Origin: Candidula unifasciata
Taxonomy: Eukaryota; Mollusca; Gastropoda; Stylommatophora; Geomitridae
Direction: 5' to 3'
Assembly: GCA_905116865.2 (NCBI GenBank)
Contig: CAJHNH020006667.1
Span: 12,501-76,500 of the forward strand
DNA: 64,000 bases
A program made the translations under genes and the position numbers. A model generated the notes under the pieces. It did not search any database. It saw nothing but the letters and a program-made list of their open reading frames with translations, and was not told where the DNA came from. Positions 30,512 through 45,565 of this stretch are shown here, piece by piece. Numbering within the stretch: the first letter of the stretch is position 1; each line of letters opens with the position of its first letter.

Positions 30512-30611
30512 TTACTTATCAGGAACACCATACAGATGATGTTCTCGAATGTAGTCTATCACAGAATCTTGCAGTACATATTTCACACTTTCACCACGAC
30601 GTAATGCTCTC
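30512..30611 (-). CDS. NMNAT1: NMNAT last coding exon with stop
   Basis: A 100-nt coding part: G completing the AG|G arginine codon, 32 codons, then TAA at 30514-30512. The acceptor is TTTACACAG. It encodes [20 protein letters not shown] then [12 protein letters not shown], the terminal helices of NMNAT. The 3' UTR would run left into a LINE remnant (29970-30225); a TTTATT at 30172-30177 reads AATAAA on the minus strand and is one possible poly(A) signal, unproven. Confidence 0.93.

Positions 30612-45565: not shown

Follow-up and report, generated by a model that had tools for sequence, protein, structure and literature searches.

Layout of the gene

The window, by which we mean the whole 64,000-nucleotide stretch of DNA analysed, covers bases 12,501-76,500 of contig C6660 (1,583,038 bases) in the 1.34 Gb genome of the land snail Candidula unifasciata (GCA_905116865 is the assembly accession stated in PMC8496239). 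It holds six of the nine coding exons of an NMNAT gene, which lies on the minus strand and keeps one reading frame over 60.3 kb; exons 1-3 lie on the same strand 12-19 kb to the right of the window and are given in extended window coordinates. P0121 in the following list is the public protein of the locus.

83274-83352 (extended), minus strand: exon 1, carrying the GSYNP signature
80363-80451 (extended), minus strand: exon 2
76231-76298 (extended), minus strand: exon 3, whose last two bases belong to a split codon
45566-64000, minus strand: intron 3 as far as the window reaches; in full it measures 30,665 nt and runs to 76230 (extended)
45423-45565, minus strand: exon 4, 143 nt, in phase 2 and out phase 1, placed by splice sites and the match to P0121
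38831-38961, minus strand: exon 5, 131 nt, placed by splice sites and phases
34718-34819, minus strand: exon 6, 102 nt, placed by splice sites, phases and the match to P0121
31595-31653, minus strand: exon 7 (59 nt), from which the ISSTKVR signature crosses into exon 8
30512-30611, minus strand: exon 8 in its short form, 100 nt including the stop, with the end GVPDK
end at 30516, minus strand: exon 8 in its long form, placed by the match to P0121
30510-30517, minus strand: overlap of the short-form stop (TAA, 30512-30514) with the splice donor (AA/GTAAGC, slash at the splice junction, GT at 30515-30514)
23086-23368, minus strand: exon 9, the alternative last exon, with 283 coding nt including the stop, located by tblastn of the P0121 tail
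22713-22718, minus strand: AATAAA, resembling a polyadenylation signal, downstream of the stop of the long form

Exons 4-8 were the subject of a preliminary description of this DNA, which had them joining in phase as part of an NMNAT, and this is borne out. Each has an AG acceptor, a GT donor follows every one before the stop-bearing exon 8 (with the end of exon 6 at 34718, its donor reads CAA/GTAAGC), and their intron phases are compatible, without frameshift. The N-terminal exons had been expected more than 18 kb upstream; they are indeed on the same strand, the nearest 30.7 kb from exon 4. To the right of the window a GSFNP-containing exon ending with two bases of an incomplete codon had been predicted: the ending is that of exon 3, whose two bases form a codon with the first one of exon 4, but the motif reads GSYNP. 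The motif GS[FY][ND]P is absent from both strands of the window; the exon that carries it is located outside. Placing the end of the gene at 30512 proved too early, as the ninth exon runs to 23086.

Joined, exons 1-8 encode 256 residues. An in-frame ATG further upstream (extended 83353-83379, C6660:95853-95879) adds MFCWKSSAS and is unused in P0121; since the MFCWKS start is also found on the NMNAT proteins of Physella and Plakobranchus, translation may begin nine residues ahead of the annotated start, or at both sites. For C. unifasciata, PMC8496239 gives medians of 11,931 bases per gene and 2,025 bases per intron; a gene of 60.3 kb with a 30.7-kb intron is long by comparison, yet not of another kind.

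Identity of the enzyme

Spliced together, the five window exons encode 177 amino acids, of which residues 1-173 match NMNAT1 of PDB entry 1kqn with E 1.1e-52, and a fuller query reaches NMNAT1 in PDB with E 8.7e-88 (we take entries 1kqn, 1kku and 1gzu to be human NMNAT1). Against TIGR00482, with its curated cut-off of 112.45 bits, P0121 scores 159.4 bits and P0002, the public protein of a second copy described below, 173.8 bits; the five-exon piece by itself stays below the cut-off (86.1) because it is incomplete.

The catalytic signatures, described from the outset as intact, are so. The N-terminal G-S-[FY]-N-P-x-T-x-x-H-x-R is present in exon 1 as GSYNPVTNMHLR, with G13, P17, T19, H22 and R24 invariant among 32 aligned sequences, and the C-terminal ISST-x-[IV]-R is present as ISSTKVR in exons 7-8, with S219, T221 and R224 equally invariant. 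We take the GSxNP motif and ISSTKVR to be functional NMNAT signatures. From family membership, the enzyme is predicted to make NAD from NMN (or NaMN) and ATP. Close to the end of exon 4 the translation contains a basic cluster, KRRRR (residues 118-122, 45436-45450, minus strand), which resembles a nuclear-localisation signal and may act as one; a basic stretch occupies the same position in the aligned molluscs.

The likeness to the NMNAT1 structures in PDB extends over query residues 4-274 and takes in both signatures (GSxNPxTNMHLR and ISSTK.R) as well as a run of basic residues within the variable loop. Unlike the snail protein, these chains stop about 25 residues past the core, without a tail of the kind encoded by exon 9.

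The gene had been called hidden; however, P0121 (C. unifasciata, 349 amino acids) already covers the locus, with 100% identity over 96% of a 265-residue query. Among the named matches from other species, a Physella protein at 80% identity ranks first. The gene is thus an ordinary, intact, already annotated NMNAT. Pfam CTP_transf_like has two genome matches above its cut-off, on contigs C1676 and C435, neither of which is an NMNAT contig; the translation of one resembles what we take to be choline-phosphate cytidylyltransferase. Rfam gave 0 matches in the window at gathering scores.

A second NMNAT copy

A second NMNAT lies on contig C2111 (1,221,340 bases) at 236458-252660, about 16 kb. Its eight exons have the same phases, and joined they reproduce P0002, also a C. 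unifasciata protein, exactly. The two genes agree at 197 of 254 aligned residues, with a dS of 1.78, which is near saturation, a dN of 0.14 and a dN/dS of 0.08; judged by these rates, the pair is under strong constraint (purifying selection).

The C2111 copy has a short end, GATK followed by a stop, and a genome search with the tail (E up to 10) found no second tail exon for it. The two end forms may accordingly be divided between the two genes. A tree built from 25 selected sequences places the C2111 copy with Bradybaena (support 100/99) and the window gene as sister to both, with moderate support (88/82), so the duplication probably predates the split between Candidula and Bradybaena. As a putative origin of the copies, the whole-genome duplication that a preprint (PMC12407731) reports for the stylommatophoran lineage would fit.

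Two possible C-termini

The last 93 residues of P0121 come from a single open exon, 23086-23368, and exon 9 is the sole match of this tail in the genome (search with E up to 10). The window thus encodes two candidate ends, one reading GVPDK and a stop, the other running from GVPDNKYINHMMPSPN to LVKRVKNVRVGFTPETCV. Both frames are open, the donor of exon 8 is consensus-like, and the public product of the locus is the long form. For a short form, candidate polyadenylation signals (ATTAAA/AATAAA) lie near 30283 and 30177.

Ends of the -DK type occur in eight listed proteins of other species (P0003, P0007, P0013, P0016, P0018-P0021). They can be read unbroken on contigs of 0.9-1.6 kb (P0003, for example, on 901 bases), and so these contigs are probably spliced transcripts. 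Read-through of any intron with the donor GAY-AA/GTAA gives -DK and a stop, so annotated short ends may be prediction artefacts. The short form in C. unifasciata is accordingly a predicted one, deduced from the open frame and from other species. Two predicted C-terminal forms of NMNAT, P0024 and P0154, are also listed for Schistocerca nitens, on contigs of equal length.

A candidate parallel is offered by Drosophila Nmnat, where, according to passages of PMC4674693, alternative splicing among the final exons sets the C-terminus: the RA and RB products differ in their C-termini, PA/PC being nuclear and PB/PD cytoplasmic, and the cytoplasmic, protective isoform is favoured under stress. The same passages describe two candidate start codons within exon 1, as in the snail. 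In the fly, the nuclear signal KKQK is located in the alternative exon 7 (PMC4674693, same passages), whereas the snail has its KRRRR in the shared exon 4 and TPETCV in the alternative exon; with the basic cluster in a shared exon, the parallel is one of kind and differs in detail. By analogy, an alternative C-terminus would decide the location of the snail enzyme.

A PDZ-ligand-like end

The long form ends in TPETCV. A class I PDZ ligand is a free C-terminus of the form [ST]-x-[VIL], which ETxV fits. Among 181 listed NMNATs, 25 have [ST]x[VIL] at the C-terminus and 20 of those have ETxV: 13 molluscan, 1 annelid, 2 nemertean, 2 chelicerate (QETAV) and 2 others. Internally, ETxV occurs at 20 of the 53,082 positions of the 181 proteins, which are related sequences from one hit list, so that the ratio is not a probability.

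When the C-terminal 45 residues were compared for 25 proteins picked from the 181, the middle of the tail was more variable than its end. Seven gastropods with an ETxV-type end share LV[KR]RV[KR]N[VI]RV..TPET[CR]V, and a core plus long tail ending in PETCV is found in Physella, Bulinus, Biomphalaria, Plakobranchus (as PETRV), Patella, Babylonia, Octopus, Lineus, Tubulanus and Ridgeia. These relatives differ from the snail protein in the length and sequence of the tail middle. PETCV also ends proteins of a chiton, a mussel and an argonaut, and outside gastropods, octopus, Ridgeia, Tubulanus and Lineus included, the preceding block is only loosely alike. We take Ridgeia to be an annelid and Tubulanus and Lineus to be nemerteans, and likewise assume the other animal group assignments.

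A pattern written for long tails matches 35 of the 181 listed proteins, 12 of them ending in ETxV, and misses for example Octopus and Mytilus. A search with nothing but the tail returned nine proteins with E no higher than 0.01, every one of them molluscan, and beyond molluscs kinship of the tail therefore depends on the short end. Other ends are listed for Lymnaea, oysters, Haliotis, Pomacea, a scallop and clams (for example ...RRVKNYNLR...), while RPACLL ends four listed insect NMNATs and further insects end differently; the PDZ-type ligand is therefore not universal. A KNYNLR-type second alternative end, of the sort that other molluscs have, was sought with the single pattern NY.LR in 126.5 kb and gave three matches, none near exon 9.

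QETAV ends three proteins, P0091, P0113 and P0157, two of them named as chelicerate, whose tails are otherwise unlike the molluscan one; the likeness of their end to the molluscan end may reflect either shared ancestry or convergence.

An AlphaFold2 model built from 32 sequences has a mean pLDDT of 75.3, with 168 of 349 residues reaching 90. Of residues 257-349 (93 in all), 74 fall in segments below 50, residues 346-349 among them, and the model is without secondary structure after residue 248. The core is thus modelled with confidence, and the tail is predicted to be disordered, with a flexible and exposed end.

Proposed mechanism and alternatives

We favour the reading that the locus encodes an intact NMNAT whose exon 8 is used in two ways and whose long tail is anchored through PDZ domains, and give it, taken as a whole, a probability of roughly 60%. 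Mechanistically, if the donor of exon 8 is ignored, translation would stop at the TAA inside it, giving a 256-residue enzyme with the end GVPDK. Use of the donor would join exon 9 and give a 349-residue enzyme with a flexible tail ending in TPETCV, which, as a class I PDZ-domain ligand, would tether some of the enzyme to sites such as synapses or junctions. The KRRRR of the loop shared by both forms would direct enzyme to the nucleus, and the C2111 copy would, after the old duplication, have retained the short end only.

The rival that we take most seriously, though we consider it less probable, is a gene with a single product: only the long form would be made, the short stop would be useless read-through of a donor, and the end of the tail would be kept for stability, chaperone activity or a different partner. 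It agrees with the listing of the long form as the public protein of the locus; the gene set published for C. unifasciata has one mRNA per gene throughout, as stated in the part of PMC8496239 consulted, and alternatives therefore cannot show there. The gastropod conserved block, which reaches upstream of ETCV (LVRRVKNVRV), beyond what a PDZ ligand needs, also speaks for a single product. Harder to reconcile with it are the -DK enzymes that contigs of 0.9-1.6 kb from other species encode unbroken, and the pair of C-terminal forms predicted for Schistocerca nitens (P0024 and P0154).

That the exons are chance survivors in a decaying or truncated duplicate, a pseudogene, might be suggested by the very long intron 3 (30.7 kb) and the second complete NMNAT copy in the genome. 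Nine exons without stop or frameshift, consensus-like splice sites and the 80% identity of the Physella match make this highly improbable, and we rejected it on the dN/dS of 0.08 and the open frame. It is scarcely conceivable that the five exons are chance NMNAT matches or parts of different genes, given the E of 1.1e-52 for the joined exons and a second copy with identical exon phases whose joined exons equal P0002 exactly.

Extending the favoured reading of two C-termini beyond the snail gives a wider proposal, which we put forward tentatively and regard as somewhat doubtful: in protostomes, an old alternative C-terminus of NMNAT would be a PDZ ligand (TPETCV in lophotrochozoans, QETAV in chelicerates) that docks a NAD-making, neuron-protecting enzyme to membrane scaffolds, and the land-snail duplication would then have split the forms between genes, leaving one copy with the unanchored end only.

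With the gene itself ordinary and already annotated, its possible importance lies in the tail, and the alternative tail is also the surprising part, located outside the coordinates first described. How NMNAT is held at particular neuronal places is a live question, and the conserved docking-like end in molluscs is directly testable. A role of NMNAT in neuronal survival and axon protection is described in PMC6468476. Literature searches, thin in subscription journals, found no paper linking NMNAT to a PDZ ligand (in one paper that mentions both NMNAT and PDZ, the latter concerns PTEN) and no match for NMNAT together with ETCV.

Introns and repeats

The introns had been described as mostly transposons. 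We compared them with 200 kb sampled from elsewhere on their contig (20 pieces of 10 kb), a weak test that sees only repeats recurring within 200 kb. Sample matches cover 16.4% of 30512-45565 and 23.0% of 30512-83352, against 17.7% (sd 5.2%) for the pieces versus each other, and so give the description no backing. Individual introns range from 0 to 39%, with introns 1 and 5 above background (39% and 34%) and introns 6 and 7 below it (6% and 0%). Genome-wide, repeats make up 61.1% and transposable elements 33.96% in the figures taken from PMC8496239, and the description may therefore still hold.

Intron 6 contains a broken non-LTR retrotransposon (32853-33738), whose 3' part shows 37-38% likeness to an element at 19941-20060 and to another in L018, and intron 5 a tandem array of a 29-base unit in about 39 copies (34970-36096). 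Two segments flanking or interrupting this array, 34880-35007 and 35621-35748, both match the 200-kb sample.

Two copies of a short element, at 46756-46956 (intron 3) and 4593-4858, match each other at 75-95% in pieces, and the 200-kb sample contains one more match. The element resembles what we take to be the hAT transposon SPACE INVADERS (SPIN). A SPIN-like hAT with about 1,000 copies is reported from the snail Biomphalaria (passages of PMC5440852). Within the second SPIN-like copy lies a perfect 31-base tandem repeat of 4.3 copies (4611-4742).

Elsewhere in the window, degenerate non-LTR retrotransposons occupy 6242-9035 and 19013-20087, with endonuclease and RNase H recognised in three of the four frames given to Pfam. 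Minisatellites with 48-base units of unlike sequence are present at 10985-11426 and 62901-63618; in the former, several reading frames stay open, and the resulting long ORFs are not necessarily genes.
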